This document shows, one piece after another, positions 11,020 through 32,573 of a stretch of DNA of 32,905 bases (position 1 is the first letter of the stretch; every line of letters starts with the position of its first letter). Location: positions 1 through 32,905 of the forward strand of contig RXJV01000152.1 of assembly GCA_003963075.1 (NCBI GenBank), given 5' to 3'. The position numbers and the translations under genes are program-made. The notes beneath the pieces were generated by a model. That model was given only the letters and a program-made list of their open reading frames with translations. It was not told the origin of the DNA and made no database searches. This DNA comes from Burkholderiales bacterium (GTDB lineage Bacteria; Pseudomonadota; Gammaproteobacteria; Burkholderiales; Burkholderiaceae_C).

Positions 11020-11020
11020 A

Positions 11021-14846: not shown

Positions 14847-14853
14847 GAGCGCC

Positions 14854-17606: not shown

Positions 17607-18451
17607 GGACCGGGCTGCTTCTTTTGGGGCTGGTGGCCCTGCCCGCTTGGGCGGCCGGCGGCGAATTCTTCGACGACTTCTCGCAGCCCGACCTCGACGC
17701 GCTGCGCGCCAGCGGCTGGGTGCTGCGCGATGGCACCGGCCACCCCGGCCTGGCGGGCTCGCGCTTCGCGCCTGGCCAGCTGTCGCTGGCGGGCGGCCTG
17801 CTGAAACTCTCGCTCTCGACCGACGGCCGGCCCGCGAACACGACGCTGGCCCAGCTCTGCGCGCCGCGCAAATTCCTGATCGGCACGACGACGGCGCGTG
17901 TGCGCCTGCGCGACACGCCGGGCTCGCGCGATCCCATCGTGCAGAGCTTCTTCCTGGCCAGCCCGTTGAAGCACGACTACGACCCCGACTTCAGCGAGGT
18001 CGACTTCGAATACCTGCCGCACGGCGGCTGGGGCGAGGCCGAGACGCGGCTCTATGGCGTGAGCTGGCACACGGTGCGCATCGAGCCCTGGGAGTCGTTC
18101 AACCAGGCCTCGATCCGCCAAGGCAGCTTCGATGGCTGGCAACTGCTGACGGTGCAGGTCGAGCCCACGCGGACGCGGCACTACGTGAACGGCCGCCTGC
18201 TCGGCGAGCACACCGGCCGCAACGTGCCGAGCCAGCCCATGGCCATCAGCTTCAACCACTGGCTGGCCGCCGGCGCGCCCGAGGGCGAGCCGCGCCGGTA
18301 CAGCTTCGAGGTCGACTGGGTGCTGCACGAGGCCGGCCGCACGCTGAGCCCGGCCGCCATGCAGGCCCGCGCCACCCAACTGCAGCGCCGCGGCGTGGCG
18401 CGCGTCGACACCGTGCCCGACTCGGGGCTGACCAGCGAGTGCAACCTATGA
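17603..18451 (+). CDS. Secreted GH16-family glycoside hydrolase
   Basis: 282 aa with a short signal peptide (MRTGLLLLGLVALPAWA, cleavage after about residue 18). The GH16 catalytic motif E-x-D-x-E is present as SEVDFEYLP: nucleophile E132, D134, acid/base E136. The flanks YDPDFSEVDFEY and SWHTVRIEPWESFN followed by YVNGRLLGEH fit the concanavalin-like fold. GH16 enzymes cleave beta-1,3/1,4-glucans, galactans and, in fungal Crh enzymes, transfer chitin chains. Placement inside a chitin operon, overlapping by 4 nt at both ends, suggests a chitin- or fungal-wall-related polymer as substrate. No carbohydrate-binding module is present. Substrate unresolved. Confidence 0.8.
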   Translation: MRTGLLLLGLVALPAWAAGGEFFDDFSQPDLDALRASGWVLRDGTGHPGLAGSRFAPGQLSLAGGLLKLSLSTDGRPANTTLAQLCAPRKFLIGTTTARVRLRDTPGSRDPIVQSFFLASPLKHDYDPDFSEVDFEYLPHGGWGEAETRLYGVSWHTVRIEPWESFNQASIRQGSFDGWQLLTVQVEPTRTRHYVNGRLLGEHTGRNVPSQPMAISFNHWLAAGAPEGEPRRYSFEVDWVLHEAGRTLSPAAMQARATQLQRRGVARVDTVPDSGLTSECNL

Positions 18452-19590
18452 AGCCGCTTTTGATGGCCGCGCTGGCCCTGGCCGCCGCGCTGGCCCAGGC
18501 CCAGACCCCACCGGCCCAGCGCCCGGTCGTCGGCAGCTATGTGCTGGCCGAACGCGGCGTCGACGTCGTCGAACAACTGGCGCCGGGCCGCGTGACCCAC
18601 CTGCTGTATGCCTTCCTGCTGATCTGCGGCGAGGGGCAGCGCCCGCAGGACGCCCAGGCCTGCCAGGGGCAGCCGCCGTTCGGCATCGCACCCCACGCCG
18701 ACCAGGCGACGTTCTCGGCTGCGTTCGAGCGCCTGAAGCAGCGTGACCCGCAGGTGCAGGTGCTGGCCTCGGTGGGCGGCTGGGGTGGGTCGGACCCCTT
18801 CTTCCATCTCGCCGCCAGCGCGGCGGGCCGTGCGGCCTTCACGAAGCAGGCCACCGACTGGTTGCGCGCCCACCCGGTGTTCGACGGCCTGGACATCGAC
18901 TGGGAGCACCCCGGCAACAACGGCGCATCCAACGGCGTCCAGCTCGGCAGCCCGGCCGATGCCGAGCATTACGTGCTGCTGATGCAGAACCTGCGTGCGG
19001 GCCTGGACGCCTTGGGCCGCGAGACAGGCAAGCGCTATGCGTTGACCACTGCGATCGCGACCACCCGCGAGCAGATGGCCCGCATGGCCATGGGCCGCGC
19101 CGCGCCGTCGCTGGACCTGGTGTTCATGATGACCTACGACTTCTACGGCCCCTGGACGAAGAAGGCCGCGAACCATGCCGCGCTGCGCGGTGCGCGGCCC
19201 GGCGACGACGACAACCTGGAAGCCTCGGTGGCCAACCTGCGCCGCGCCGGCGTGCCGGCCTCCAAGCTGGTGGCCGGCGTGGCGATGTACGGCCGCGGCT
19301 TCGACGGCGTAAAGCGCGATGGTCGCTACGCCAAGCCCTGGCCCAACGAGGACGGCTCGGTGGCCTTCAAGGACATCGATGGCCTCAGCGGGATGAAGGC
19401 CCATTTCGACAAGCGCACCCAGTCCTGGGCCATGGTCGGCGGTGGCCGCTTTGTCGGCTACGACGACCCGCGCGCGGTGCGGGCCAAGGTGGCGTTCGCG
19501 AAGAAGCAGGGGCTGGCCGGTGTGTTCGCCTGGGAACTCAGCCAGGACAACGGCGAGATCCTCGGTGCGATGGGCACGATGCTGCCGTGA
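18448..19590 (+). CDS. Secreted GH18 chitinase
   Basis: 380 aa. Signal peptide MKPLLMAALALAAALAQA; catalytic domain from about residue 25. The GH18 signature D-x2-D-x-D-x-E is FDGLDIDWEHPG (D146, D149, D151, proton donor E153). SVGGWGGSDPF (strand 3), FMMTYDFYGPW (strand 6) and FAWELSQDNGE (strand 8) are also typical of family 18. A single catalytic domain with no chitin-binding module suggests action on soluble or amorphous chitin and chitooligosaccharides. The start ATG overlaps the GH16 stop; the stop overlaps the GTG of nagX. Confidence 0.93.
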   Translation: MKPLLMAALALAAALAQAQTPPAQRPVVGSYVLAERGVDVVEQLAPGRVTHLLYAFLLICGEGQRPQDAQACQGQPPFGIAPHADQATFSAAFERLKQRDPQVQVLASVGGWGGSDPFFHLAASAAGRAAFTKQATDWLRAHPVFDGLDIDWEHPGNNGASNGVQLGSPADAEHYVLLMQNLRAGLDALGRETGKRYALTTAIATTREQMARMAMGRAAPSLDLVFMMTYDFYGPWTKKAANHAALRGARPGDDDNLEASVANLRRAGVPASKLVAGVAMYGRGFDGVKRDGRYAKPWPNEDGSVAFKDIDGLSGMKAHFDKRTQSWAMVGGGRFVGYDDPRAVRAKVAFAKKQGLAGVFAWELSQDNGEILGAMGTMLP

Positions 19591-20663
19591 GCGGCGGGCT
19601 GGCGACGAAGCGCATCGCGTCGGTCGACGCGCTGCGCGGGCTGACGGTGGCGGCCATGCTGCTCGTCAACAACCCGGGCGACTGGGGCCATGTCTATGGG
19701 CCGCTGGAACACTCGGACTGGCATGGCTGCACGCCGACCGACCTGATCTTCCCGTTCTTCCTGTTCATCGTCGGGGTGTCGGCAGCACTCGCCCTGGGGC
19801 CGCGTGTCGACGCCGGTGCGGCGGCGGGCCCGCTGCGCGCCGCGGTGCTCAAGCGTGGGCTGCGCATCATCGGCCTGGGCCTGGTGCTGCATGCGCTGGC
19901 CTGGTGGCTGATGCACAAACCCGAGTTCCGCGTCATGGGCGTGCTGCAGCGCATCGGCATCTGCTTTGTCGTCGCAGGCTGGGCAGCCATTGAGCTGCGC
20001 TGGCGGGGCCGGCTGCTGCTGCTGTTGTCGCTGCTGCTGGGCTACGGTGCGCTGCTGCATGTCGGCCCGACGCTGGACAAGCTGGGCAGCCTGAACCAGC
20101 GCTTGGACACCGCGCTGCTGGGCCGCTTCGCCTACGAATGGAACCCGGCCAGCGGCGTCGCCTTCGACCCCGAAGGCCTGTTGTCCACGCTGGGGGCTCT
20201 CGCGACGACCGTGCTCGGCCTGCTGTGCGGCGGCCTGCTCAGGCGTGGCCGCAGCGTGAGGCTGCTCGGCGTGGGCGTGTTGGCGGCGCTGGCCGGTTTG
20301 GCCTGGTCGGCCTGGCTGCCCTGGAACAAGCAGTTGTGGACACCCAGCTTCGTGTTGTGGACCGGAGGCCTTGCGGCGCTGGCTCTGGCGGCGGCGCATG
20401 GGTGGATCGACCGGCGCGGCCATCCCGCGATCGGCCGCGCGTTCGGGCTGAACGCGATCGGCGCCTATGCGGGGGCCTGGATGTGCACGGTGCTGCTGGA
20501 GGGCTTGGGCTGGATGGGGCCGCTGTACCGCACGGTGTTCGGGCCTTTGGGGCCGTGGCTGGGGCCGCAGGGGCAGTCGCTGGCCTTTGCGGTCGCCTTT
20601 GTCGCTGTCTGGGCGGCCATCGTCCACTGGCTGGACCGGCGGGGCTGGTACTGGAAGGTCTGA
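19587..20663 (+). CDS. nagX: NagX, HGSNAT-like membrane acyltransferase family (DUF5009)
   Basis: 358 aa with about 10-11 membrane helices. The N-terminal ASVDALRGLTVAAMLLVNNP and the loop LEHSDWHGCTPTDLIFPFFLF (H42) match the family of lysosomal heparan-alpha-glucosaminide N-acetyltransferase, whose active His sits in the equivalent loop. Bacterial members called NagX are found in GlcNAc and chitin regulons. Their activity is not settled; acetylation of glucosamine or glucosaminides across the membrane is the natural hypothesis. The start is GTG overlapping the chitinase stop by four bases, so translation is coupled. Confidence 0.88.
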   Translation: MSGGLATKRIASVDALRGLTVAAMLLVNNPGDWGHVYGPLEHSDWHGCTPTDLIFPFFLFIVGVSAALALGPRVDAGAAAGPLRAAVLKRGLRIIGLGLVLHALAWWLMHKPEFRVMGVLQRIGICFVVAGWAAIELRWRGRLLLLLSLLLGYGALLHVGPTLDKLGSLNQRLDTALLGRFAYEWNPASGVAFDPEGLLSTLGALATTVLGLLCGGLLRRGRSVRLLGVGVLAALAGLAWSAWLPWNKQLWTPSFVLWTGGLAALALAAAHGWIDRRGHPAIGRAFGLNAIGAYAGAWMCTVLLEGLGWMGPLYRTVFGPLGPWLGPQGQSLAFAVAFVAVWAAIVHWLDRRGWYWKV

Positions 20664-20668
20664 CAGCG

Positions 20669-21376
20669 ATGCAGGGCCGTGAGTTCGCGGTGAGGATGCC
20701 GCCGGATGTCTGCGCCGCGCAGGTCGGCGAACATGCGGTGGTCTTCATCGACGACTTTCTCGAAGAGCCTCAGGCCCTGGTCGAAGCGGCCTGCCAATCG
20801 AGCTTCGCGCCCTGTGCGGGCTTTGACGAGCGGCGGGGCTACCCCGGCCTGCGCGCGCCCGTGCCGCCCGGCTATTCGGAACGCCTGACGGAGCTGCTGG
20901 ACCCGCTGATCCGCGTCAACTTCGGCGTGCCGCAGGCGCTGGCCCTGAAGAAGACGCCCTGCGCCTTCTCGCTCACCACGGTGGCGCCGCAGGCCTTGGG
21001 GCCGCTGCAGCGTGTACCGCACTTCGATGCCAGCACGCCGCACTACATCGCCGCGCTGCTCTACCTCTGCGACGAGAACCACGGCGGCACGGCCTTCTAT
21101 CGCCACCGTGCCACCGGCTTGCAGCGGATCAGCGCCGACGCCTGCGAGCGCTATGGCGAGGCTGTCGCCGCCGAACTGGAGCGCCAGCCGGCGCCGCCAC
21201 GCTACTTCGGCGAGTCCGACGCGCATTTCGAGTTGCTGGGCGTGATGCGGGCCCGCTTCAACCGGCTGGTCCTGTACCGCGGCAGCCTGCTGCACACCGC
21301 CATCGTCAATCCGCGCAGGCTGAGTGCCGACCCGCGTGCCGGACGCTTGACCGTCAACAGCTTCTACGATTTCTAG
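20669..21376 (+). CDS. DUF6445 protein, probable 2-oxoglutarate/Fe(II) oxygenase
   Basis: 235 aa. I recognise the family (DUF6445) by the ending RLTVNSFYDF and the segment YRHRATGLQRI. The residues of a prolyl-4-hydroxylase-type 2OG oxygenase are all in place: H118-x-D120 in VPHFDAS, distal H209 in RGSLLHTA, and R226 in GRLTVNSFY, which would hold 2-oxoglutarate. No signal peptide. The start ATG at 20669 has GGAAGG upstream, 5 nt after nagX. It is the last gene of the chitin operon. Family members are commonly near TonB receptors and tryptophan-halogenase-like genes, as here. Substrate unknown; the oxygenase reading is inference from motifs. Confidence 0.78.
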   Translation: MQGREFAVRMPPDVCAAQVGEHAVVFIDDFLEEPQALVEAACQSSFAPCAGFDERRGYPGLRAPVPPGYSERLTELLDPLIRVNFGVPQALALKKTPCAFSLTTVAPQALGPLQRVPHFDASTPHYIAALLYLCDENHGGTAFYRHRATGLQRISADACERYGEAVAAELERQPAPPRYFGESDAHFELLGVMRARFNRLVLYRGSLLHTAIVNPRRLSADPRAGRLTVNSFYDF

Positions 21377-21387
21377 CCCCAAAAAAA

Positions 21388-21409
21388 GGTTCTTCACGCC
21401 TTTCCGGGG
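21388..21409. repeat. Left terminal inverted repeat of the ISL3 element
   Basis: GGTTCTTCACGCCTTTCCGGGG followed by the transposase stop codon region; 17 of 22 bases match the complement of the right end. The transposase stop (21394-21396) lies inside this repeat. Mismatches are clustered in the middle (positions 9 and 12-15). Confidence 0.85.
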
Positions 21410-22596
21410 AAAGCCGCGCGGATCTTGAGGAAGAAGAAGGCGGTGTCGCGGTAGCCGTAGGCCATGCGCTTGATGAGCTTGATACGGTTGTTGATGCCTT
21501 CGAGCTTGCCGGTGTGCATGGGCCAGCGGACTCGGGCGAGGATGCCTCGCCAGTAGGGGCGCAGGGTTCGCGCGAAGCGCTGCAGCGCCGGTATCTCGCT
21601 GTCGTGGGCGTGAGCGAGCCACTGCTTCCAGCGCCGGCGCCACTCCCAGGCGTCGGGAGCCGTCCATAGCGCCTTGAGCTGCTCGTTCATGACGTAAGTG
21701 GTCATGAGCGGTTGGTTGGCAGCCAGCACCTCGCCCAGGCGCACCTGCTGAACGTCGCTCAGCGAGCTGCGGTTGCGCAGCAACAACCAGTGCGCCTGCT
21801 TGACCACACGACGCGCCGGCTTGTCCTGACGCAGCTTGTTGGCGGCATCGACACGGACTCGGGAGATGACCTCGCGCGCGTACTTGGCCACAACGTGGAA
21901 GAGGTCGTAGACGATGCGCGCGCTTGCGCAATGGTGCCGCACCTCCAGGTCGAAGGCGCTGTTCATGTCCATGGCCACCGCTTCGATACGCGCACAGCCC
22001 TTGGCGCCCAGCGCTTTGAAGAAGGGCCGTACCGACTGGCGGCTGCGTCCCTCGGCCACCCACAGCACCCGCCCGCTGTCGGCGTCGAGGATGACGCTGG
22101 CATAGCGATGGCCCTTGAACAGTGCGAACTCGTCCATGATGAGTCGCCGGGGTTCAATGACTGGCAGCGCCGCCACCTCAGCCAGCAGGCGTCGCTTGTC
22201 CAGCGCTCGCACTGTGCTCCAGTGCAGTCCCAGCCATTGCGCCACATGCGCCACCGCCATCTGGGAGCACGCCTGCGCTGCAGCTTGCTCCAGGCGCCGC
22301 GTCAGCCGGGAGTGCCTGGCCAGCCACGGCACATGCTGAAGCCGCTGACCGCAGCTCGTGCAGGCCAGGCGGTACAGCACCACCTCCAGCCTCACGGGGT
22401 GGCCCACCATGGGCAAATCCCGCACCCGCCGCGTGAGCTGTTCATGGATGCGCGAACACTGGGCCAGGCAATGCCCACAGCGCAGTGGCACGGTCGGATC
22501 CGGCTGGAGCCGGACCTCCACCTCCTGGCCCTGGGCCTTCAGTTCAGCAACGCGAAAGCCCGGCCAGAACGGCAGGGCGTCTGTATCCTTGTGCAT
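21394..22596 (-). CDS. ISL3-family transposase
   Basis: 400 aa from the ATG at 22596; a TTG at 22635 would give 413 aa. The N-terminal zinc-binding pair C-x2-C ... C-x2-C (RCGHC, CTSCGQ) is followed by a helix-turn-helix (VAQWLGLHWSTVRALDK). The DDE catalytic core has D in IMDEFALFKGHRYASVILD, D in VAMDMNSAF, then RIVYDLFHVVAKYA, and E in HTGKLEGINNRIKLIKRMAYG. All three regions are typical of ISL3. The frame is uninterrupted, so the element may still move. It is on the minus strand, as is the adjacent TonB receptor upstream. Confidence 0.95.
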   Translation of the reverse strand: MHKDTDALPFWPGFRVAELKAQGQEVEVRLQPDPTVPLRCGHCLAQCSRIHEQLTRRVRDLPMVGHPVRLEVVLYRLACTSCGQRLQHVPWLARHSRLTRRLEQAAAQACSQMAVAHVAQWLGLHWSTVRALDKRRLLAEVAALPVIEPRRLIMDEFALFKGHRYASVILDADSGRVLWVAEGRSRQSVRPFFKALGAKGCARIEAVAMDMNSAFDLEVRHHCASARIVYDLFHVVAKYAREVISRVRVDAANKLRQDKPARRVVKQAHWLLLRNRSSLSDVQQVRLGEVLAANQPLMTTYVMNEQLKALWTAPDAWEWRRRWKQWLAHAHDSEIPALQRFARTLRPYWRGILARVRWPMHTGKLEGINNRIKLIKRMAYGYRDTAFFFLKIRAAFPGKA

Positions 22597-22672
22597 TGGA
22601 GCGGTGCTCTCGGAGCTTGATGTTTGGTCGCACAACCATCTTCCCCGAGCGTCACCGCTCTACTCATTTGCG

Positions 22673-22694
22673 CCCCGGACTTCCGCGAAGAACC
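22673..22694. repeat. Right terminal inverted repeat of the ISL3 element
   Basis: Complement reads GGTTCTTCGCGGAAGTCCGGGG; outer 8 and inner 7 bases agree with the left end. The promoter of the transposase must lie between here and 22596. Confidence 0.85.
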
Positions 22695-22721
22695 AAAAAA
22701 AAGCCCGGCATCGGCCGGGCT
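22695..22721 (-). terminator. Rho-independent terminator of the first TonB receptor, split from its original flank by the IS
   Basis: On the minus strand: stem AGCCCGGC/GCCGGGCT with a CGAT loop, then eight T. It lies 29 nt after the receptor stop. The T tract is directly joined to the right inverted repeat of the ISL3 element, so the insertion used this T tract as target while the duplication kept the terminator working. Confidence 0.85.
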
Positions 22722-22749
22722 GAAGAGGGGAGACAAGGGGTCGTCGGGC

Positions 22750-25401
22750 TCAGAACTTCGCGCTCAGGCCCAGTCGGTAGGTGCGCTCGCCGTCGAAGCC
22801 CCAGACCGGGAAGCCGGCCTTGAGCGAGGGCCGCACCGTGCTGGAGGCCGCGGCGGCGCCGTATTGCAGGTCGTCGGACCGGAGCAGGTTGGTCACGTCC
22901 AGCGACAGGCGCAGCTCCTTGGTGATGTTCCAGCCCAGGCTCAGGTCCAGGCTGCCAAAGGCGTCGTGCATGCGATTGCCGTACCAGCCGCTCTCGCGCA
23001 CCATGTATTTGGAGCGCCAGCTGTAGGCCAGGCGGGCCGTGTAGCTTTCGTTCTCGAAGTAGCCGACGGCGTTGATGTTGTGCTTGGAGGACAGCGTGAA
23101 CAGGTTCAGCTGGTCCTCGTAGGAGCTGGACGGCGCCCGGGCGTCGGCATAGGTGTAGTTGGCCTGCACGCCGAAGCCATTGCCGAAACCGTGGTTGACC
23201 TGCAGCTCGGTGCCCTGGATCCGGCCGCCGCCCGCATTGACGTAGCGGTTGATGATCCAGTCATCCACACCGGTGTCGGGACTGACGACGCCCACCTTCT
23301 GGTGGTACTGCGTGGTGGTGGTGATGAAGTTGCTGATCTTCTTGTAGAACAGCGCGGCCGACACCAGGTTGCCACGCCCGTAGTAGTACTCGATGCCGAG
23401 GTCGAACTGGTTGGAGGTTTGCGGCTTCAGGCTGGGCGTGCCGTAGTTGAAGGCGTCGTTCTGCAGGTTCTTGTCGTTGAAGCCGACCACCTGGGTCAGG
23501 AACATGTTGGCGAAGTTGGGCCGGGTCATGGCCTGGGCCGCGGCGAAACGCAGGATGGTGTCTTTCTGCAGGTCATAGGCCAGGTTGAAGCTGGGCAGAA
23601 CCTTGCTGTAGCTTGCGCTCTGCCGGGTCAGGCTCTTGCTCCAGCCGTCGTTGTTGCTGATGTAGTTCGGGTCGGCGGCGGGCCACAGCGTGCCGTCGAA
23701 CGCATAGCCCGTGGCTGCAGCCTGGGTGTGGACATAGCGCAGGCCGACGTTGCCGCGCAAGCGCTCGGCTTCGAAATCGAGCATGCCGTAGGCGGCGGTG
23801 TTCTTCTCGTTGAGCTCGCCATAGGCCGAGCGGTCGTCCACCCAGCCGGACAGGTTCCCGCTTGCGGCCGCCAGCATCGCACCGATGTCCGGCTTGGCCA
23901 CGTTCCAGCCGCCCAGCGACACGCTGCCGCTGAACAAGGACGAGGTGGCCACGGTCTTGGGGCTGGCTGCATACAGGCCCACCTGGCCCGACTTCGAGAA
24001 GGTGTGGTTGGTGCTGCGCAGCCCGGTCTTGAAGGCCGTCAGGAAGCCGCTGTTCAGGTCGATGTTTGCATCGAGCTGCAGGAAGTCCTCCTTGTCGCGG
24101 TTGGGGCCGCGGCCGTTGGCCCAGCTTTCCGATTGCGACTGCGCCGGCAGGTTGGCCAGCGTGATGCTCTGGTTGGACGATGGCGACAGCTTCAGCTTCT
24201 TGCCGGTGGCGTCGATGGTGCCCGTCCACAGCGGCAGCGGCGCGAACGCATTCGCCGTGCCCCAGCCGTTGGGGTCGGTCGGCGGCGCGTTCACGTAGGC
24301 GAAGTTGGCGGTCTGGTCCGTGCCGCCGTCGGCCTTGGTGGAGCCGCCGACGGCGGAGAGCTTGTAGCCCTCACCGCGCCAGCTGCCATTGAGCACCAGG
24401 CTGTCGGAGCTCATCGATGCGCGGCGCACCCAGTTCTGGAAGAACACATGCTGCGTGCTCGGGTCGGCGGCCGTGCGCACATGCAGCGTGCAGGTGCCAT
24501 TGTCCGGGTTGGTCTGCTTGCAGTTCTGCGGGTCCTCGCCGGTGTAGATGTACTGGCTGGTGTTGGAGTTGTTCGCGTCGTAGTTCAGGTGCAGATAGTT
24601 CAGGCTCAGCTCCAGCCCCTGCACGGGACGCGCCTGCAGGGTCAGGTTGATGGCCTGGCGCTTGCGGTCCTGCACGAACACGGTGGGCTCGACGTCGCCG
24701 CTCCAGCGGTTGTCGGCCTCGATGCCACGGCGGATGTAGTTGCCCTTCTCGACCGTGCCCGCGACAAGCAGGCCCAGGGTCTTGGCCTCATTGCGCCAGC
24801 TGTACAGGCCCGACGCCTCACGGCTCGCGCCGCTGATGCTGCCCTTGCCGAACTTGACGCTGACGAAGCTGGTGTGAGCGGCCTGGTCCAGCGGCAAGCG
24901 CGTCTTCACGATCACGGTGCCGCCGATGCCACCTTCGGTCAGGTCGGCCTGCGAGGACTTGTAGACCTCCATGCCGCCGATCAGCTGGGGCGGCAGCAGC
25001 GAGTAGTTGAAGGAGCGGTCCACGTCCTTCTGGTCGTACCAGCCGGTGGAAGCGACCGTCTGTCCGTTCAGCGTCGTGTAAGTCATTTGCGGGTCGGTGC
25101 CGCGGATCGACACCGACGCTCCGACGCCGAAGTCGCGGCCGACCGAAATCCCCGGGATGCGTCCCAGCGACTGCCCGACGTCGGAGTCGGGCAGCTTGCC
25201 CACGTCTTCCGCCGACACCGCGTCGACCACGGCGTTGGCGTTCTTCTTGATGTTGGCAGCCGACTGCAGCGATGCACGGATGCCGGTGATGACCACCTGT
25301 TCGAGCTGCGCGGGTGCGGCGTCCTGGGCCCGGCTGGCCAGCGGCAGGGCCAGCAGGGCCAGCGACACGGCGGACGCGATGGGGGTGGGTCTGATCTGCA
25401 T
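22750..25401 (-). CDS. TonB-dependent receptor, chitooligosaccharide-type (receptor 1)
   Basis: 883 aa. Signal peptide MQIRPTPIASAVSLALLALP ending near A25; TonB box LEQVVITG at about 33-40; plug domain (VSAEDVGKLPDSDVGQSLGRIPGISV, then VSIRGTDPQMTYTTLNGQ) and a 22-strand barrel ending in YRLGLSAKF with terminal Phe. The pattern is that of large proteobacterial receptors for saccharides (TIGR01782-like). No STN domain, so no sigma/anti-sigma signalling. The ATG at 25401 has AAGGAA upstream; the longer frame to 25461 is not needed. Adjacency to the chitin operon and a shared promoter motif point to chitooligosaccharide import, but the substrate is inferred. Confidence 0.9.
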   Translation of the reverse strand: MQIRPTPIASAVSLALLALPLASRAQDAAPAQLEQVVITGIRASLQSAANIKKNANAVVDAVSAEDVGKLPDSDVGQSLGRIPGISVGRDFGVGASVSIRGTDPQMTYTTLNGQTVASTGWYDQKDVDRSFNYSLLPPQLIGGMEVYKSSQADLTEGGIGGTVIVKTRLPLDQAAHTSFVSVKFGKGSISGASREASGLYSWRNEAKTLGLLVAGTVEKGNYIRRGIEADNRWSGDVEPTVFVQDRKRQAINLTLQARPVQGLELSLNYLHLNYDANNSNTSQYIYTGEDPQNCKQTNPDNGTCTLHVRTAADPSTQHVFFQNWVRRASMSSDSLVLNGSWRGEGYKLSAVGGSTKADGGTDQTANFAYVNAPPTDPNGWGTANAFAPLPLWTGTIDATGKKLKLSPSSNQSITLANLPAQSQSESWANGRGPNRDKEDFLQLDANIDLNSGFLTAFKTGLRSTNHTFSKSGQVGLYAASPKTVATSSLFSGSVSLGGWNVAKPDIGAMLAAASGNLSGWVDDRSAYGELNEKNTAAYGMLDFEAERLRGNVGLRYVHTQAAATGYAFDGTLWPAADPNYISNNDGWSKSLTRQSASYSKVLPSFNLAYDLQKDTILRFAAAQAMTRPNFANMFLTQVVGFNDKNLQNDAFNYGTPSLKPQTSNQFDLGIEYYYGRGNLVSAALFYKKISNFITTTTQYHQKVGVVSPDTGVDDWIINRYVNAGGGRIQGTELQVNHGFGNGFGVQANYTYADARAPSSSYEDQLNLFTLSSKHNINAVGYFENESYTARLAYSWRSKYMVRESGWYGNRMHDAFGSLDLSLGWNITKELRLSLDVTNLLRSDDLQYGAAAASSTVRPSLKAGFPVWGFDGERTYRLGLSAKF

Positions 25402-25462
25402 TCTTTGTTCCTTGTCAGCGGCTTTTGCGGGTGGGCGGGCGGGCACTTGGCTGGTGTGCATG

Positions 25463-25476
25463 CCACTACCAGTCCA
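25463..25476 (-). promoter_or_regulatory. Degenerate direct-repeat site in the leader of receptor 1
   Basis: Minus strand reads TGGACTGGTAGTGG: two TGG half-sites 11 bp apart and the conserved A at position 10, but the base pairs after the first TGG differ from the main motif. It lies about 45 bases downstream of the predicted -10. It may be a second operator or chance. Confidence 0.35.
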
Positions 25477-25521
25477 ATTGCGCCCTCAATCTCCGAGAGT
25501 GGCGCAACCGGCATGGGCCAG

Positions 25522-25554
25522 AATGTAGATATCAATAGGTCCACTTTGCTACCA
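25522..25554 (-). promoter_or_regulatory. Promoter region of receptor 1 with candidate NagQ operator
   Basis: Operator-like TGGTAGCAAAGTGG (minus strand, 25541-25554) is identical to that of receptor 2, and a -10-like TACATT (25522-25527) lies at the same distance from it as TACAGT does in receptor 2. The leader to the start codon at 25401 would be about 115 nt. A canonical -35 is not evident, so an activator or a weak -35 is possible. The two-promoter alignment is the main support. Confidence 0.55.
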
Positions 25555-25641
25555 CTTTGCACTGGGTAGTTTTCCGGGTGGCTTCTCCAGGCCCCCTGCC
25601 AAAGGTCATGAGGTCCCCAGGGGCCGCCACCGCGCGACCTC

Positions 25642-25751
25642 AGACTGGTATTGAAGGTGGGCGGTGCTGGTCTGCTCGGCGCGTTGCGAATTGGCGATCC
25701 GGCGCCGGCGAATTGGTCGGCTTTTGCGGCCCGGCCGGGGTGCGCTGTTAG
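25642..25751. promoter_or_regulatory. Probable upstream region of the JmjC pair with repeated TGG/ATTGG half-sites
   Basis: The receptor 1/JmjC divergent region (25402-25815, 414 nt, no gene) holds, on the plus strand, TGGTATTGAAGGTGG at 25646 (one base longer than the nag motif), TGGTCT 22 bp further on, and two copies of GCGAATTGG (25686 and 25708), also 22 bp apart. A weak promoter TTGCGG-N16-TGTTAG (25724-25751) follows. Spacing by two helical turns suggests protein binding but the sequence match is poor. Confidence 0.35.
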
Positions 25752-25815
25752 CGTGGCGGGCGTCAGCGGGCCGTAACCCGCGCGGCAGCGATGACCTTCA
25801 AACCGAGTGGCAGAC

Positions 25816-26775
25816 ATGAAGCTGGTGGAGACCTGGACGGCCGCGGATGGGCCGCGACTCAAGGAGATGCTTGAACAGCGGGCCGAGCCCGTGCTTCTTC
25901 GAGGCGCCGTGTCCTATTGGCCTGCCGTGCGGGCCGGTCTGGGCAGCCCGCTGGGCATCTGCGGCTACCTGGCCCGTTTCGATCGCGGCGTTGAAGTGAT
26001 CGCCACCAAGACCCGTGCCGCCGCCCGCGGCGTGATGGGCTACAACGACGACCTGACCGACTTCGCCTTCGTCAAGGCGCGCATGCCGCTGGCCGAGTTC
26101 ATGGCGCACCTGGACGCCTACAGGTCGGCCGACAACGCGCCCGCCATCGCCGCGCAGTGCGCCAAGGTCAGCGAGGTCATTCCGGGCTTTCTGGACGAGA
26201 ACCCGATGCCGGCTCTGCCCGGCGTGGTGCCCAACTTCTGGCTCGGCAATGCGCTGACGGTGCCGGTGCACCACGACCACCCTTACAACCTGGCCTGCGT
26301 GGTGGCCGGGCGGCGGCGCTTCACGCTGTTCCCGCCCGCGCAGGTGGGCAACCTCTACATTGGCCCGCTGGAGCACACGCCGTCGGGCGCACCGATCTCG
26401 GTTGTCCATCCACAGGCGCCGGATTTCGAGCGCTACCCGCGCTATCGCCTGGCGCTGGCTGCAGCCCAGGTGGCCGAGATGGGGCCGGGCGATGCGCTGT
26501 ACATCCCGCCGTTGTGGTTTCACCAGGTCGAGGCACTGGAGAAGGTCAACCTGCTGGTGAACTACTGGTGGCCGGTCGTCGGCGCGCCGGCCGAGGCACT
26601 GCTGCCCAGCCCGGCGCAGGCGCTGATGCAGGCCATCCAGGTGATGAACGCGCTGCCGCCGGCGCAGCGCGACGCCTGGGCGGCGATGTTCTCGCACTAT
26701 GTGGTGCAGCGCGAGCAGGACCCGGGCGCCCACATCCCGGCGCCCTGGCAGGGCGCGCTGGCGCGGCGGCCCTGA
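25816..26775 (+). CDS. JmjC/cupin_8-like putative Fe(II) oxygenase 1
   Basis: 319 aa, cupin-8/JmjC fold. After an N-terminal part with a proline- and tryptophan-rich helix pair (EPVLLRGAVSYWPAV), the metal site is H152-H153-D154 in VPVHHDHPYN, then VVAGRRRFTLFPP, and the distal H236 in YIPPLWFHQVEAL. The remainder is helical. The arrangement is that of the TonB-receptor-associated cupin-like proteins; the natural substrate is not known. No signal peptide, so cytoplasmic. The ATG at 25816 is preceded by GAGTGG; a GTG at 25807 is an alternative. It is paralogous to the next gene, with the intervening sequence only 11 nt. Confidence 0.82.
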   Translation: MKLVETWTAADGPRLKEMLEQRAEPVLLRGAVSYWPAVRAGLGSPLGICGYLARFDRGVEVIATKTRAAARGVMGYNDDLTDFAFVKARMPLAEFMAHLDAYRSADNAPAIAAQCAKVSEVIPGFLDENPMPALPGVVPNFWLGNALTVPVHHDHPYNLACVVAGRRRFTLFPPAQVGNLYIGPLEHTPSGAPISVVHPQAPDFERYPRYRLALAAAQVAEMGPGDALYIPPLWFHQVEALEKVNLLVNYWWPVVGAPAEALLPSPAQALMQAIQVMNALPPAQRDAWAAMFSHYVVQREQDPGAHIPAPWQGALARRP

Positions 26776-26786
26776 GGAGACGGCGG

Positions 26787-27803
26787 ATGCAAGCGATGAA
26801 GGAACTCAGCGGCGTCACGCGCGAGCGCTTCGAGCGCGAGGTGTTGGCGGGCTACGAGCCGGTGGTGATGCGAGGGGTGGTGGCGCACTGGCCGTTGGTG
26901 GCCCAGGCGCAGGCCGGGTTGGAGGCCTGCCTGCACTACCTGATGGGCTTTGACCGCGGCGAGGCGGTCGATGCACTGCTGGCCCGGCCCGAGCCAACCC
27001 GTGCCTTCAGCTACAAGCCGGGCCTGGACGGCTTCAACTTCTCGCGCGACAAGCGTCCCTATGCGGCGCTTTTCGAGCAGCTCTGGCGCTACAGCCATTT
27101 CCCGGATCCACCCGCGCTGGCGGCGCAGAGCGCACTGGTGGCCACCGTGTTGCCGGGGCTGGAGCTGGCGAATCCGCTGCCTTTGCTGGGTGCGGAGGTG
27201 GCGCCGCGTTTGTGGATAGGCAATCGCGCAACGGTGCCGGCGCATTTCGACGATTCCCACAACATCGCCTGTGTCGCGGCCGGCCGGCGTCGGTTCACGC
27301 TGCTGCCCCCGGCCTGCGCGCCACTGCTCTACCTGGGGCCGCCCGACCATGCGCCGACGCCCGCGCCGATGTCCGTGGTGCCGGATCTGCACCGGGCCGA
27401 CCCGGCGCAGTTCCCGCTGGTGGCCGAGGCTTTGGCGTGCGCTGTGGAGGCCGAGCTGGAACCTGGCGATGCGATCTACATCCCGCCGCTGTGGTTCCAT
27501 CAGGTCGAGGCCCTGGCTCCGCATCTGAACATCCTGATGAACTACTGGTGGCGGCCAGACCCGGCCCCGGGCCGGCGCGACGACCTGCACCTGGCCGCAA
27601 TGCGGCTGGCGATGCTGGCGCTGCGCCACCTGCCGGACGGCGAGCGCGAGGGCTGGCGGGCGCTGTTCGACCACTATGTGTTCGGCGCGCGTGGCGAGGC
27701 GCTGGCGCACATCCCCGAAGGCCAGCGTCATCTGTTCGGCGCGCTGGATGCCGAGCAGGACGCGGCCCTGCGCCGGGACCTGGTGGCCCGGCTGGGCCCC
27801 TGA
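26787..27803 (+). CDS. JmjC/cupin_8-like putative Fe(II) oxygenase 2
   Basis: 338 aa, clear paralogue of the preceding gene: both read RRRFTL and IPPLWFHQVEAL, and LLVNYWW versus ILMNYWW follows. Metal ligands are H153-x-D155 in AHFDDSH and H238 in WFHQVEAL. The preceding LWIGNRATVP also matches FWLGNALTVP of gene 1. Start ATG with GAGGAG at 26774-26779, a good ribosome site. Its stop is one base from the convergent halogenase stop. The central part differs from gene 1 (SYKPGLDGFNFSRDKRPYAA versus the GYNDDLTDFAF region), so the two copies probably act on different residues or partners. Confidence 0.82.
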   Translation: MQAMKELSGVTRERFEREVLAGYEPVVMRGVVAHWPLVAQAQAGLEACLHYLMGFDRGEAVDALLARPEPTRAFSYKPGLDGFNFSRDKRPYAALFEQLWRYSHFPDPPALAAQSALVATVLPGLELANPLPLLGAEVAPRLWIGNRATVPAHFDDSHNIACVAAGRRRFTLLPPACAPLLYLGPPDHAPTPAPMSVVPDLHRADPAQFPLVAEALACAVEAELEPGDAIYIPPLWFHQVEALAPHLNILMNYWWRPDPAPGRRDDLHLAAMRLAMLALRHLPDGEREGWRALFDHYVFGARGEALAHIPEGQRHLFGALDAEQDAALRRDLVARLGP

Positions 27804-27804
27804 G

Positions 27805-29415
27805 TTACCAGAGGTAGATCTGCAGGGTCTTGTCGCCGACGCGCGGCGGGATGTGGGCCAGCAGGTCGCGATGGTCCGGAAAATTCCGGGCGCTGCGGGC
27901 GACGAAGTCGTCCACCGCGTCCAGCCGGTGACGGGCTTCGTGGGGCGTCGGCGGCCGCATCTCGCTGGCGTCGGGGAAGATGCCCATGCCCGCCAACAGC
28001 GCGTACCAGGACACGATGGGGTAGCCGGCGCCGAAGCGCCCAGCCTTGAGGCCGGCGGCCAGCGGCTTGCGGGACAGCCAGGTCATCAGCACGCCCTCCA
28101 GCGAGTCCGACAGCTGCATGTTGTCGGCATTGGCCCGCCAGTACTCGGTGTCGGTGCGCGAGTTGGTCTTGTAGTGCGCCACGATGTAGTCGCGCGTGTT
28201 CTCGAAGCGGGTGGCCATCTCATCGTTGAAGCGCTGCCGGGCAGCCGGGCCGAGGTTGCCCTGCTCCAGTGCGTTGACGAATGCGGCGGCGGTGCGCTGC
28301 ACGAACAGCAGGGCGGTGGCTTCCAGCGGCTCGATGAAGCCCTGCGACAGCCCCACCGCGACGCAATTGCGGTTCCAGATCTGCGTCATGCGGCCGACGC
28401 GCATCTTCAGATGCCTTGCCGGCACGTCGGCGTCCAGCAAGCCCAGGTGGCGCCGCAGCTCGGTCTCGGCCTCGTCCGCCGAGCAGTGGGCGCTGCTGTA
28501 GACATAGCCGTTGCCGCAGCGCGTGGTCAGCGGGATCTTCCACGCCCAGCCATGGCGTAGCGCGGTGGACACGGTCTGCGAGGGGATCGGGCCGTCCAGC
28601 GGTGTGGGCATCGCGATCGCCGCGTCATTGAACAGGTTCTCGGCAAACGGGATGAACGGCGTGCCCAGGGCCTCGCCGATCAGCAGCGACGAAAAGCCGG
28701 TGCAGTCGATGAAGAAGTCGGCGGACAGGGCCTGCCCGTCGTCAAGCAACAGGCTGGCGATGTCGCCCGCCTCGTTCAGCTGGACCCGGTGGACATGGCG
28801 CTGCAGGTGGCGGACGCCCCGTTCGACGGCCTTGCGAGCGAGGAACTGCCCGAGCAGGGTCGCATCGAAGTGATAGCCATACCAGACGTCGAACGGAAAG
28901 TCAGCCCGCGCGCGCGGGCCACGTCCCTGGCGGGCGAGGGCGGCCGCGACGAAGAAGCGGTCAGGGTGGGCGTACACGTCGGCGCCGTCGAGCCGCGCAT
29001 GCACGTTGTCCACGAACGGGTGCATGGTCATGTTGTCCAGCATCGACGCGAACGGATGGAAGTAGCGCTCGAAGCCCGGCCGGGTGGACCAGCCTTCGAA
29101 GGTGATGCCGGCCTTGTAGGTGGCGTTGCAGGCGGGCATCCATTCCGACTCCTCAATGCCCAGCCCATCGAAGAAACCGCGCAGCCAGGGCGTTGAACCC
29201 TCACCAACGCCGATGATGCCGACCTGCGGCGACTCCAGCACGCTGACCTTCAGACGTGGTCCGTAGGCCGAGGTGGCCAGCATCAGCGCCGTCATCCAGC
29301 CGGCGGTGCCGCCACCGACGACACAGACATGCTGGATGGGTGGCGGCGCCAGCGACGTGCCGCTGGCCGGGCGCGCGGCAACGTGCTGGTTGAAGACGGT
29401 GGCGGTGTCGGTCAT
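27805..29415 (-). CDS. Flavin-dependent tryptophan-halogenase-like protein
   Basis: 536 aa. FAD-binding VVGGGTAGWM (residues 32-41), the halogenase Lys at K101 (CNATYKAGITF), and the halogenase signature W-x-W-x-I-P as WAWKIP (290-295). The active-site loop reads IEPLEATALLF with E365; characterised tryptophan halogenases read PLESTG there, so the Ser and Gly are replaced by Ala. Such proteins are common beside TonB receptors and their substrate is unknown. Start ATG at 29415 follows 14 nt after a terminator T tract; the upstream frame would run through that hairpin. It lies downstream of receptor 2 on the same strand. Confidence 0.82.
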   Translation of the reverse strand: MTDTATVFNQHVAARPASGTSLAPPPIQHVCVVGGGTAGWMTALMLATSAYGPRLKVSVLESPQVGIIGVGEGSTPWLRGFFDGLGIEESEWMPACNATYKAGITFEGWSTRPGFERYFHPFASMLDNMTMHPFVDNVHARLDGADVYAHPDRFFVAAALARQGRGPRARADFPFDVWYGYHFDATLLGQFLARKAVERGVRHLQRHVHRVQLNEAGDIASLLLDDGQALSADFFIDCTGFSSLLIGEALGTPFIPFAENLFNDAAIAMPTPLDGPIPSQTVSTALRHGWAWKIPLTTRCGNGYVYSSAHCSADEAETELRRHLGLLDADVPARHLKMRVGRMTQIWNRNCVAVGLSQGFIEPLEATALLFVQRTAAAFVNALEQGNLGPAARQRFNDEMATRFENTRDYIVAHYKTNSRTDTEYWRANADNMQLSDSLEGVLMTWLSRKPLAAGLKAGRFGAGYPIVSWYALLAGMGIFPDASEMRPPTPHEARHRLDAVDDFVARSARNFPDHRDLLAHIPPRVGDKTLQIYLW

Positions 29416-29428
29416 GGGGATCGGCAAG

Positions 29429-29457
29429 AAAAAAGGGAGCGTGTCTCCACGCTCCCT
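29429..29457 (-). terminator. Strong intrinsic terminator between receptor 2 and halogenase
   Basis: Minus strand: 10-bp perfect stem (AGGGAGCGTG / CACGCTCCCT) with a GAGA loop, then six T. It ends 14 nt before the halogenase ATG, leaving no room for an independent promoter. The halogenase is therefore probably expressed by partial read-through of the receptor transcript. Confidence 0.85.
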
Positions 29458-29519
29458 CTGCATTGTGGTCAACCCGCGGGGACGCTGGAACCGGTGGGTT
29501 CCAGCGCTCCGGATCGGCG

Positions 29520-32303
29520 TCAGAACTTGACGCGGGCGGTCAGGTAGAACTGGCGGCCGTTCTTGTAGATCGCGCGGGGCTGGGACTTGAAGTCGCCGTA
29601 GTACTTCAGAACCGGGTCATTCAGGTTCTGAGCGTCCAGGCTGAAGGCGAGGTTGTCGCTGAACTTGTAGCCCAGCGACGCGGACAGCACGCCAACACCG
29701 CGTTGGAAGTAGTCGGTGCCACGGTCACGGCCCAGGAAGTTGTCTGAGTTGTAGCCGTAGTTGATCCGCGCTGAGAACTGGTCGTTCTCGAAGAAGCCGT
29801 TCAGGTTTGCAGAGTGCTCGACAGCACCGCGCAGCACGTGACCCGATTCGTCGTGGGCGTCGGCATAGGTGTAGTTGGCACCAATGCCGAAGTTGTTCCA
29901 GACAGGCGTCTCAAAGGCGAACTCCAGCCCAGTGACGTTGGCCTTCTTGTTGATCTGAGTGGTCAGATCGAAAGGTGCCGTGACACGCTGGTTGGTGATC
30001 GAACCCGGTTGGCCGCCGGCAGGCGTCACGTCCGTCGGGGCTGTCACACGGCGGACGCCATCGATGACATAGCTGTTCAGGCTCATATGGAACGCACCGA
30101 CCGACACGAAAGCTCGCGGGGCGAAGTACCACTCGAGGTTGGCGTCGAAGTTGGTCGAGCGGATTGGGTTGAGGTCGGGATTGCCGCTCGTGCCGGTGCC
30201 CACCGACTTGCCGGTCGGGTCCGAATACCCCCCAAGCAACTGGGCAGCCGACAGCGCCGTGTAGTCGGGGCGCGTCAGCGTGCGCGACAGTGCGAGACGG
30301 GCGACGACCTTCGGTGTGACGTCGATGCGGATACTGGCGCTGGGCAGAGCGTCCGTATAGCTGCGCTCGCGGAACGTCTGGTAGTAGCCGGTCGGGTCGG
30401 TCCACTTTGGTCCGACCGCTGCAAAGGCTGAGTCGACATAGCCCGGCAGGGTCTTGTCGCTGGTCGGCACCCAAATCAGCGAACTGGTCTTGGTGCGCAC
30501 CACGCGCAGACCGACATTGCCGCTCCAGCCGTCGCCCTCTAGGTTGCCCTGCAGGTAGCCCGCCGTGTTGGTTTCCTTGACCGAGTACTCGTGGGTGGCT
30601 TGACGGCGTGCGATGCTGCGGTTGGCGTATTTGGCGTTGTAGGCTGCCAGCGTTTCGGGCGTCGGGTATGGCACCCCGGTCGGGAAGCCGCTGCCCAGGC
30701 CGTTGCCGAAGTTGCTCGGATAGGTTTCGGTGTAGGCGGAGGCCGGCAAGGGGTTAGCAAACGGATCAGCAGCCCAGTTCGGACCCTGGCCGACGATGGG
30801 GCCGTCCGTGTAGCGGTCGTGCTTGGAGCCGCGCAGACCGAACTTGAGGCTGCGCAGCATGCCGGCGTCTAGCGCGTACTCAGCGTCCAGCTGCGCCCAG
30901 GTGTCCTTGTCCCGCACGATGACGTTCTGATCACCGAAGATCCAGTCGGTGCCGGAAGGTTTGAGAGCAGCGCCATTTGCATTGCCGATATTGAAGGCCG
31001 GGGCCTCACCGCTTCCCTTGAGCTGGTAGCCACCGCTGGACGCGGTGATGTCACCCTCGTAGACGTCCTGGCTGAGCGTCTTGCCCGCGCCGCGCGATGT
31101 TCCGACGGTGCTCGACAACTTCAGCGCGTTGTTTACCTTCCAAGAACCTTCGAGATTGAGGAAGTTGGTCTCGGCCGACGCCTTGCGCGAGATCATGTCG
31201 TAGACGCCGAAGATCGTTGGGGTGGCGAACGTGTAGTTGGCGGATGTCAGGATGTTGGTTGACGGGTCAATCGTGAAGTTCGTGACCGTTGGCTTACGGC
31301 TCAGAGCCCACTGATTGGCCAGCAGGTAGTTGCGGTTGTAGTTGTCCGCATCCATCTTGGAGGAGAAGCCAGTCAGCGTGACATCAATGTCCTGCGTCGG
31401 CTTGATTTGTGCGCTGATCAGGCCGCCTTTGCGCTCGCGCTGCTGCGTGAACAGTGCCGAGCCCAACAGGTTGGGCAGGAGGGTGCCGACCGGGATGCCG
31501 GCGGCAACCGCATCGGGATGGGTGGCCAATGTGATCGGGGTCAGCGACTGTTGGCCATCGAGTGCAAAGGTCTCGACACCGTCACGGCGCAGGTGGCGCT
31601 TCTCATCGAAGGCTTGGATCAACACGCCGAACGTTTTGGCCTCATTCTTCCAGGCGAGCAGTGCGCTCAGTTGGGGGTCACTCTTCTTGGCCAGGTCGGC
31701 GTAGACAACGCCCAGGTTGGCTTCGAACGTGAGCGCCTTGGTGAATTCCAGCGGCTTGCGGGTGATGATGTTTACCGAGCCGGCCGTGCCGCCCTCGATG
31801 TCGGATGCCGACGCGTTTTTGTGGACCTCGACACGGCTCACGAGTTCCGACGGCAGCAGTGAGAAGCTGACGCTGCGTCCAACACCGGCGCCGGTCTGGT
31901 CCAGCACGAACCAGTCGCCATTGGCGACCGGGTGGCTGTCGAGCAGGGTCTGGGTCAGGCTGGGGTTGGTACCTCGGAGGCCGACGCGGTCGCGTTCATC
32001 GAAGCCACCGGAACCGCCAGACGGGCTGTTGAGGATGGTGACGCCCGGAATGCGTGCTAGCGAGTCGGCCACGTTCTTGTCGGGCATCTTGCCGATGTCT
32101 TCGGCGGAGATGACGTCGATGTGGGTGTCGGCGTTGCGTTTGACGCTCAGCGATTTCTCCTGAGCGGCGCGAATGCCGGTCACGACGACCGTCTCAAGTT
32201 GCTGTTGGGCCGGTGCCGGCGCTTGTTGCGCCGTGGCGGCGCCACCGATACCGAGCAGGGCGATGAAAACCGCCTGCGAGATGGGGGTCTGCTTGACCTT
32301 CAT
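29520..32303 (-). CDS. TonB-dependent receptor, oligosaccharide-type (receptor 2)
   Basis: 927 aa. Signal peptide MKVKQTPISQAVFIALLGIG to about A25; TonB box LETVVVTG at about 36-43; plug domain with ISAEDIGKMPDKNVADSLARIPGV and a GLRGTNPSLTQTLLDSHPV segment; barrel ends YLTARVKF with terminal Phe. No STN domain. The ATG at 32303 has GAGGAA upstream, as for receptor 1. It and receptor 1 share the plug style but differ in loops, so they may prefer different chain lengths or substrates. By eye its codon choice is somewhat less GC-rich than that of its neighbours. Upstream sits the shared operator. Confidence 0.9.
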   Translation of the reverse strand: MKVKQTPISQAVFIALLGIGGAATAQQAPAPAQQQLETVVVTGIRAAQEKSLSVKRNADTHIDVISAEDIGKMPDKNVADSLARIPGVTILNSPSGGSGGFDERDRVGLRGTNPSLTQTLLDSHPVANGDWFVLDQTGAGVGRSVSFSLLPSELVSRVEVHKNASASDIEGGTAGSVNIITRKPLEFTKALTFEANLGVVYADLAKKSDPQLSALLAWKNEAKTFGVLIQAFDEKRHLRRDGVETFALDGQQSLTPITLATHPDAVAAGIPVGTLLPNLLGSALFTQQRERKGGLISAQIKPTQDIDVTLTGFSSKMDADNYNRNYLLANQWALSRKPTVTNFTIDPSTNILTSANYTFATPTIFGVYDMISRKASAETNFLNLEGSWKVNNALKLSSTVGTSRGAGKTLSQDVYEGDITASSGGYQLKGSGEAPAFNIGNANGAALKPSGTDWIFGDQNVIVRDKDTWAQLDAEYALDAGMLRSLKFGLRGSKHDRYTDGPIVGQGPNWAADPFANPLPASAYTETYPSNFGNGLGSGFPTGVPYPTPETLAAYNAKYANRSIARRQATHEYSVKETNTAGYLQGNLEGDGWSGNVGLRVVRTKTSSLIWVPTSDKTLPGYVDSAFAAVGPKWTDPTGYYQTFRERSYTDALPSASIRIDVTPKVVARLALSRTLTRPDYTALSAAQLLGGYSDPTGKSVGTGTSGNPDLNPIRSTNFDANLEWYFAPRAFVSVGAFHMSLNSYVIDGVRRVTAPTDVTPAGGQPGSITNQRVTAPFDLTTQINKKANVTGLEFAFETPVWNNFGIGANYTYADAHDESGHVLRGAVEHSANLNGFFENDQFSARINYGYNSDNFLGRDRGTDYFQRGVGVLSASLGYKFSDNLAFSLDAQNLNDPVLKYYGDFKSQPRAIYKNGRQFYLTARVKF

Positions 32304-32421
32304 GTGCTGTTCCTCGTTGTGGCCATGGAAACCGGGTGGGCGGGCGGTGGCGGCTTCCGTTGGATCGCATACCACCTTCAGTCCTGTTGCTGCTCGGGCT
32401 GTCCTCGATATCGGTGTGCAG

Positions 32422-32559: not shown

Positions 32560-32573
32560 TGGTTCCTAATTGG
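32560..32573 (+). promoter_or_regulatory. Candidate NagQ operator F
   Basis: TGGTTCCTAATTGG followed by TATT: fits TGGTW-N4-A-N-TGG with an 11-bp period. It lies about 95 nt upstream of the receptor 2 main operator, in the opposite orientation, much as site A relates to sites B and C at the nag promoter. No gene starts nearby on the plus strand, so auxiliary-site function is the likeliest. Confidence 0.4.

Follow-up and report, generated by a model that had tools for sequence, protein, structure and literature searches.

TIGR01782 TonB-dependent receptors at a chitin locus and beyond are linked to DUF6445, Cupin_8 and halogenase genes, candidate cytoplasmic partners of the adjacent receptor

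We analyzed a 32,905-nucleotide stretch of DNA from a Burkholderiales bacterium (contig RXJV01000152.1 of assembly GCA_003963075.1; the whole stretch is hereafter the window), in which two TonB-dependent receptors of the TIGR01782 family, TBDR1 and TBDR2, are encoded next to an operon for N-acetylglucosamine (GlcNAc) and chitin, together with four putative oxidative enzymes: a DUF6445 protein, two Cupin_8 proteins and a protein of the tryptophan halogenase family. Counts made across several hundred genomes establish that these enzymes are associated with TIGR01782 receptors beyond chance, and we propose that they would be cytoplasmic partner enzymes dedicated to the adjacent receptor. Taken as a whole, the reading in which such dedicated partners modify the receptor precursor is a tentative one.

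The association was quantified in a survey of 399 genomes of one bacterial family, 59 of them with PF20043 (DUF6445) and 91 with PF13621 (Cupin_8) matches, using receptor and enzyme profiles built from the window and its own genome and, as contrast groups, the low-scoring subfamilies of the same families. Close DUF6445 homologs are accompanied by a TIGR01782-type receptor in 45 of 53 loci (39 within 5 kb), as against none of seven distant ones (Fisher's test, 1.7e-5), and Cupin_8 homologs scoring at least 170 bits in 35 of 40 loci, all within 5 kb, as against 0/20 loci in a low-scoring sample spanning 116-156 bits (Fisher's test, 1.3e-11). The DUF6445 loci represent 60 of 75 PF20043 matches, those left out being two places in the window's own genome that were examined separately, G452 and the 12 weakest; the 67 Cupin_8 matches of at least 170 bits comprise 45 in the 40 counted loci, 18 in other loci that were not counted and four that were left out. 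The loci are interrelated, and the linkage statistics are phylogenetically non-independent. Co-occurrence with TonB receptors, on which the first-pass annotation of the window had beforehand made its proposal stand or fall, proved strong from the enzyme side and from the receptor side, within one bacterial family. The recurrence of similar receptor-enzyme pairings in many bacteria suggests that the enzymes service the receptors.

Counted from the receptor side, TBDR1 orthologs (E up to 1e-150) occur in 33 of the 399 genomes, and DUF6445 lies within 1.5 kb in 26 of the 33 (genome-level Fisher's test, 1.4e-25, with G437 and G393, at 122-128 bits, excluded from the DUF6445-positive genomes and G204, where the two genes lie on separate contigs, counted as positive); receptors may have been missed here, because at most two candidates per genome were scored. 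Six orthologs from three lineages have no DUF6445, and in two of these loci a tryptophan halogenase adjoins the receptor: in one (L287), as confirmed by Pfam, it sits exactly between the receptor gene and nagX, and in the other (L283) it is found at the 3' end of the receptor gene, with the nagX side outside the view. Cupin_8 lies within 3.4 kb of all 11 TBDR2 orthologs that share at least 60% identity with it, one of them matched only in part, and near none of six receptors at 53-57% identity; relatives more distant still are mixed and were left uncounted. On a FastTree phylogeny of 89 receptors, with labels partly fixed by the way the loci were found, TBDR1 belongs to a clade (T1) of 26 members, all at DUF6445 loci and 24 with nag genes in view, and TBDR2 to a clade (T2) of 19, of which 18 adjoin Cupin_8 or Cupin_8 plus a halogenase, nag genes being visible for 12. 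The four enzymes, initially annotated as a single set, instead form two modules that are separate in relatives, DUF6445 with TBDR1 and the cupin pair and halogenase with TBDR2, and that are found together in the window, G172 and G379. In most T1 loci nagX is followed by DUF6445, while the cupin pair comes directly after nagX in G347 and G253 and a cupin after GH18 in G447; this swapping of modules at a constant operon indicates that the enzymes go with the receptor type.

The window's own genome encodes six TIGR01782 receptors above the cut-off, and all four Cupin_8, both DUF6445 and four of the five long Trp_halogenase matches (a count that omits two partial 21-bit matches) are at most 3.5 kb from one of them; two of its three SapC genes are located in the same cassettes. 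The fifth halogenase, near a contig end, has no receptor in the preceding 9 kb, and on contigs C151 and C126 a receptor stands without any of the three enzymes in the stretch examined. On contig C164 a tryptophan halogenase and DUF6445 are encoded as a single 743-aa reading frame (L041, 6157-8388, minus strand), the halogenase part of which scores 697 bits against Xcc4156 (6Y1W) and 461 bits against BrvH (6FRL). Among the loci examined, nine distinct fusions of this kind were found (ten frames, two of them from one genome).

A larger cassette emerges around halogenases of the Xcc4156/BrvH type. When an alignment of Xcc4156-type sequences from receptor loci was used to scan named genomes, at least 590 matches were returned, and among the best 80 a receptor is present in 67 loci, every one within 5 kb, a rate that is biased because the scan was seeded with receptor-linked sequences. 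Three of the 80 duplicate other loci (L202 = L127, L211 = L148, L219 = L169), and nine of the 13 receptor-less loci are cut within 6 kb upstream, L226, L244, L270 and L278 being uncut. The loci are drawn from Alpha-, Beta- and Gammaproteobacteria, and their commonest gene order, receptor-halogenase-SapC-Cupin_8-halogenase, is exact in 39 of the best 80; Roseateles chitinivorans (L206) presents the order receptor-Cupin_8-halogenase. Flanking families in these 80 loci include LacI-type regulators (38), GH3 (37) and GH16 (23), one representative of each confirmed by Pfam, and what the nag loci and the LacI/GH3/GH16 loci most often have in common is the receptor. The Caulobacter vibrioides genome, used as a control, matched TIGR01782, PF04820, PF13621 and PF07277; a PF04820 match is unspecific, since Escherichia coli and three archaea matched as well. 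SapC (PF07277) is encoded in 64 of the best 80 halogenase loci (65 genes) and is absent from the window's contig. An AlphaFold model of SapC (L204, 8253-8960) has a predicted local distance difference test score of 96.0, residues H12 and W80 are invariant in 29/29 sequences, and no match to the model was found in the PDB.

The active-site residues that the first-pass annotation had described are in place in all four enzymes. DUF6445 scores 236.9 bits against PF20043 (Pfam gathering score 24), residues H118, D120, H209 and R226 are exactly as described and invariant in 12/12 aligned sequences, and its model displays the double-stranded beta-helix fold of the 2-oxoglutarate (2OG)-Fe(II) oxygenase superfamily, to which the HxD...H triad, the Arg and the modeled fold assign it. 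Its best Foldseek matches are PolD and HygX, and the model also resembles OGFOD1, LH3, Tpa1 and P4H:EF-Tu, such that its nearest solved relatives include protein-acting enzymes. The cupin HxD...H is retained in all 129 distinct high-scoring Cupin_8 sequences, with all three residues present in both window cupins. The nearest solved relatives of the first are FIH, JMJD7 and JMJD5 (E 6e-17 and weaker), protein hydroxylases that share HxD...H with it at a remote level of likeness, and one of its Arg residues aligns with the FIH lysine that we take to be the 2OG lysine. The original JmjC/cupin_8 label stands in its Cupin_8 part for both proteins, the JmjC_2 cut-off being reached by the second cupin only.

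The fourth enzyme carries GGGTAG (GxGxxG) and GWAWKIP (WxWxIP), which we take to be functional motifs, as well as K120 and E384, the catalytic Lys and Glu of such halogenases (numbering of the 555-aa open reading frame). Among 216 distinct sequences, all retain the Lys and 214 the second Glu of EPLE. On the strength of PF04820 and these sequence motifs it is assigned to the flavin-dependent halogenase type. It is nearest to the Trp 6-halogenase 5HY5 (329 bits), with just 246 bits against 6Y1W, and falls outside the open-site Xcc4156/BrvH subgroup, nearer to the Trp 5/6-halogenases, with its paralog L041 inside that subgroup. In cassettes L203-L281, the first halogenase belongs to a subtype with WxWxIG in place of WxWxIP (73 of the 216 distinct aligned sequences) that keeps the Lys and Glu and, judging from the motif, may have a different chemistry.

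Predicted regulatory sites tie both receptors to the chitin operon. The word YTGGTATT occurs five times in the window, where 0.20 occurrences are expected, and four of these lie upstream of nagK, in the divergent TBDR1/cupin region and upstream of TBDR2 (Table 1). Scored as a word alone, YTGGTAT is present in 17/21 nagK, 20/26 T1 and 8/12 T2 promoters, for which shuffles give means of 0.8, 1.7 and 0.6, respectively; other receptor promoters contain it in 7/53 cases, likewise above shuffles (mean 1.5). The palindrome TGGTCTAGACCA, a site of DasR-type regulators, was rejected as the shared motif, with 15 matches in the window, all bearing 3 mismatches, for 6.2 expected, and none upstream of nagK or TBDR2; one match, at 25823, lies within the start region of cupin 1. 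TGGTATT arose first from the promoter comparison, and the printed NagQ motif, given as direct repeats of TGGTATT in the portion of the source available (PMC4494728), was then found to match it. The presence of NagQ-like sites at the nagK, TBDR1/cupin and TBDR2 promoters suggests a probable GlcNAc response that the two receptors and the genes of their partner enzymes share with the operon, which upholds the link to chitin in the interpretation first put forward. The fifth occurrence, CTGGTATT at 2713-2720, lies inside the coding region of an unrelated gene.

We propose a sequence of four steps. Each receptor clade travels with its own enzyme set, as the comparisons show; receptors and enzymes would belong to the GlcNAc/chitin regulon of a NagQ-like repressor, acting through the predicted sites; and the enzymes would act in the cytosol with 2OG, Fe(II) and O2 or with FADH2 and O2, a location and activity that we infer from complete active sites and the lack, by eye, of a signal peptide. 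These three steps are, in our judgment, very probable. In the fourth, the unfolded receptor precursor would be oxidized in the cytosol before Sec export, either by hydroxylation or by halogenation or hydroxylation of an aromatic side chain, as a requirement for full function; we consider this step a serious possibility, though short of probable.

A precedent for such dependence exists among iron receptors. In CciT-CciO of Caulobacter, and likewise in PiuA-PiuC and Fiu-YbiX, a TonB receptor is encoded, as in the window, beside a cytoplasmic Fe(II)/2OG dioxygenase with which it is co-conserved in Proteobacteria, and CciT function depends strictly and specifically on the adjacent CciO, CciT still being produced in its absence (available portions of PMC12004947 and PMC12004943). 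The window shares the adjacency of a receptor gene and an Fe(II)/2OG-type oxygenase gene, though an ISL3 element intervenes. In CciT-CciO and its relatives the receptor takes up iron, is controlled by Fur and is paired with a PiuC-type oxygenase, whereas the window combines TIGR01782 receptors (so classified by NCBIfam) and NagQ-like sites with DUF6445, Cupin_8 and halogenases, and the only Pfam match of DUF6445 is PF20043, outside the PiuC family. By analogy, these receptors may need their oxygenases as CciT needs CciO, and our best guess extends this to modification of the receptor precursor in the cytoplasm. Peptidyl substrates also have parallels: QhpG is a flavoprotein monooxygenase whose dihydroxylation of a peptidyl Trp takes place in the cytoplasm, ahead of export (PMC7876137, in the part available), and the open site of Xcc4156 may accept peptides (PMC7336383, likewise). 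QhpG differs in operon and substrate and matches the window halogenase weakly (NCBIfam, 37 bits for a cut-off of 240), while Xcc4156 and BrvH are counterparts of the L041 paralog, the window halogenase being of a different subtype.

We searched receptor alignments, by class, for a modified residue (SapC-cassette, 87 rows, 84 distinct; halogenase-only, 11; cupin-pair, 7). Class-specific Trp residues exist, such as W383 and W685 of the L204 receptor, and may equally well be sugar-stacking residues. A single conserved halogenation target was sought and not found, no Trp being common to the three classes. For DUF6445, the dipeptide at TBDR1 positions 252-253 is R-W in 25 of the 26 T1 receptors with DUF6445 (N-W in one) and G-W in all six without it, R252 being the sole TBDR1 column changed in all six. 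On this alignment evidence, a link between R252 and DUF6445 is only a lead, because this is one of 310 columns and at least one such column appears for 16/300 random triples of DUF6445-bearing receptors. The modification of receptor side chains originally suggested is accordingly left with no Trp target shared by all halogenase-linked classes and with a residue that tracks DUF6445 weakly.

Several observations weigh against precursor modification. No conserved Trp column spans the three halogenase-linked receptor classes, random triples reproduce the R252 pattern at the rate just given, and other DUF6445-linked receptors mostly have G at that position. The nearest relatives of the window halogenase are tryptophan halogenases, and the best Foldseek matches of DUF6445, PolD and HygX, are enzymes that we take to act on small molecules. 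For four T1 receptors, no DUF6445 and no halogenase occurs in the roughly 2 kb on either side, and receptor-less loci amount to 5/40 for Cupin_8, 8/53 for DUF6445 and 13/80 for halogenases, partly at contig ends. The proposals of the CciO authors themselves, in the text available (PMC12004947), are synthesis of the receptor's substrate by the oxygenase, breakdown of an inhibitor or oxidation of the substrate.

The last of these points leads to the closest rival, in which the enzymes act on the cargo of the receptor, oxidizing or halogenating some aromatic or amino-sugar derivative that is imported (aryl-glycosides, for example) or removing a transport inhibitor, along the lines suggested for PiuC, YbiX and CciO. 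Since no Trp is universal and R252 is only a lead, we keep it as such and regard it as plausible but somewhat doubtful. The genomic association fits cargo and receptor targets alike, and the match of the DUF6445 fold to PolD and HygX, the closeness of the window halogenase to Trp 5/6-halogenases and the substrate chemistry suggested for CciO speak for it. The same enzyme families, however, occur with differing sugar genes (GlcNAc versus LacI/GH3/GH16), so that a shared cargo is not evident; GlcNAc and chitin lack an aromatic ring for a halogenase; and free tryptophan is not accepted by BrvH and Xcc4156, as far as the available parts of the sources go. If the enzymes instead built a small signal or surface-bound ligand for the receptor, as a biosynthetic cluster around its own receptor, the fusions would suggest two enzymes sharing one pathway, and halogenases and 2OG oxygenases are typical tailoring enzymes. 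This is improbable: the five families scanned among the 25 commonest flanking families of the 80 loci are a LacI regulator, GH3, GH16 and two MFS (major facilitator superfamily) transporters, several of the remainder resembling shadow reading frames.

Ordinary clustering, with oxidative genes hitch-hiking in TonB-receptor loci and no functional dependence, could draw on the joint inheritance of gene clusters, on the non-independence of all our counts and on the occurrence of receptors without enzymes and enzymes without receptors, but is hard to reconcile with a gene order conserved across three proteobacterial classes, with nine distinct fusions, with receptor clades that retain their own enzyme at the same operon and with the unlinked low-scoring subfamilies, and we consider it very unlikely. 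Still less credible is a target in SapC or another envelope protein, for which the frequency of SapC in halogenase loci, its invariant Trp80 and a model without PDB counterpart would speak, since SapC is missing from the window's contig and from many loci in which a receptor occurs with a halogenase, DUF6445 or Cupin_8.

Pairs of a TonB receptor and a cytosolic oxygenase are already known for iron receptors. The literature searches described here turned up no paper that carries this pairing over to TIGR01782 receptors and to DUF6445, FIH-like cupins and halogenases. A literature search on DUF6445 returned no paper, and none describing a cassette of a halogenase with TonB, SapC or a cupin was found by title or abstract start. 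In text searches of the portions available, the word halogenase is absent from papers on the Shewanella sugar encyclopedia, Xanthomonas receptors, proteobacterial regulons, the Jeongeupia chitin response and Stenotrophomonas GlcNAc use, and TonB goes unmentioned in the Xcc4156 and BrvH structure papers. The linkage places orphan halogenases, whose structures are solved but which have no known natural substrate, beside a specific receptor family. It carries a partnership like that of CciT and CciO over from iron receptors to receptors of the sugar type, and opens the natural roles of DUF6445 and of Xcc4156/BrvH-type halogenases to direct test. Were the receptors modified, the maturation of outer-membrane proteins would include a process of a new kind. 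A broader version, in which cytosolic halogenases, FIH-like cupins and DUF6445 widely license TIGR01782 glycan receptors by hydroxylating or halogenating them before export, strikes us as unlikely; if true, it would couple glycan uptake to the supply of oxygen and 2OG and provide the missing natural role of Xcc4156/BrvH-type halogenases.

The four enzymes and two receptors lie where the first-pass annotation placed them, with scores far above curated cut-offs (for TIGR01782, 553 and 562 bits for the two window receptors, cut-off 310). The operon comprises, in order, a BadF-type kinase (putatively nagK-like), a GntR/UTRA regulator (putatively NagQ-like), nagA, a NagB-II-type SIS protein, GH3, an MFS protein (AmpG-like), the 17582-18451 gene, GH18 and a nagX-like gene; nagA is above its NCBIfam cut-off, and NagB-II and NagX are below theirs. 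DUF6445 follows the nagX-like gene directly and closes the operon, as had been proposed. The 17582-18451 product has no Pfam match at 1e-5, and a GH16 label considered for it was dropped for lack of Pfam support.

Table 1. Features of the window and the basis of each assignment.
Feature	Position	Strand	Basis
NagQ-like site CTGGTATT, in the 10929..11050 region upstream of nagK	10929-10936	+	
NagQ-like site TTGGTATT, in the 10929..11050 region upstream of nagK	11037-11044	+	
GlcNAc/chitin operon	11074..20663	+	Pfam and NCBIfam
DUF6445 (PF20043), modeled 2OG-Fe(II) oxygenase fold, last gene of operon, TBDR1 partner	20669..21376	+	Pfam, 236.9 bits
ISL3-family insertion element	21388..22694	-	Transposase 21394-22635; Pfam, NCBIfam, inverted repeats, A7/A8 flanks
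TBDR1, TIGR01782 TonB-dependent receptor, T1 clade (DUF6445-linked)	22750..25461	-	Pfam, NCBIfam, tree
NagQ-like site CTGGTATT, in the divergent TBDR1/cupin region (25462-25806)	25645..25652	+	
Cupin_8 protein 1 (FIH/JMJD7/JMJD5-like)	25807..26775	+	Pfam, 214.3 bits
Cupin_8 protein 2, starting 5 bp past protein 1	26781..27803	+	Pfam, 180.7 bits
Flavin-dependent halogenase-type protein (PF04820 Trp_halogenase)	27805..29472	-	Pfam, 437.2 bits; same strand as TBDR2 and downstream of it
TBDR2, TIGR01782 TonB-dependent receptor, T2 clade (Cupin_8-linked)	29520..32375	-	Pfam, NCBIfam, tree
NagQ-like site TTGGTATT, upstream of TBDR2	32570..32577	+	

The ISL3-family element between DUF6445 and TBDR1, which went unmentioned in the first-pass annotation, is bounded by 22-nt inverted repeats (21388-21409 and 22673-22694, 77% complementary) with A7/A8 flanks. 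It starts 11 bp past the DUF6445 stop codon and parts DUF6445 from TBDR1, leaving both genes intact; in most relatives the two genes are roughly 100-200 bp apart at the place where the window carries the element.

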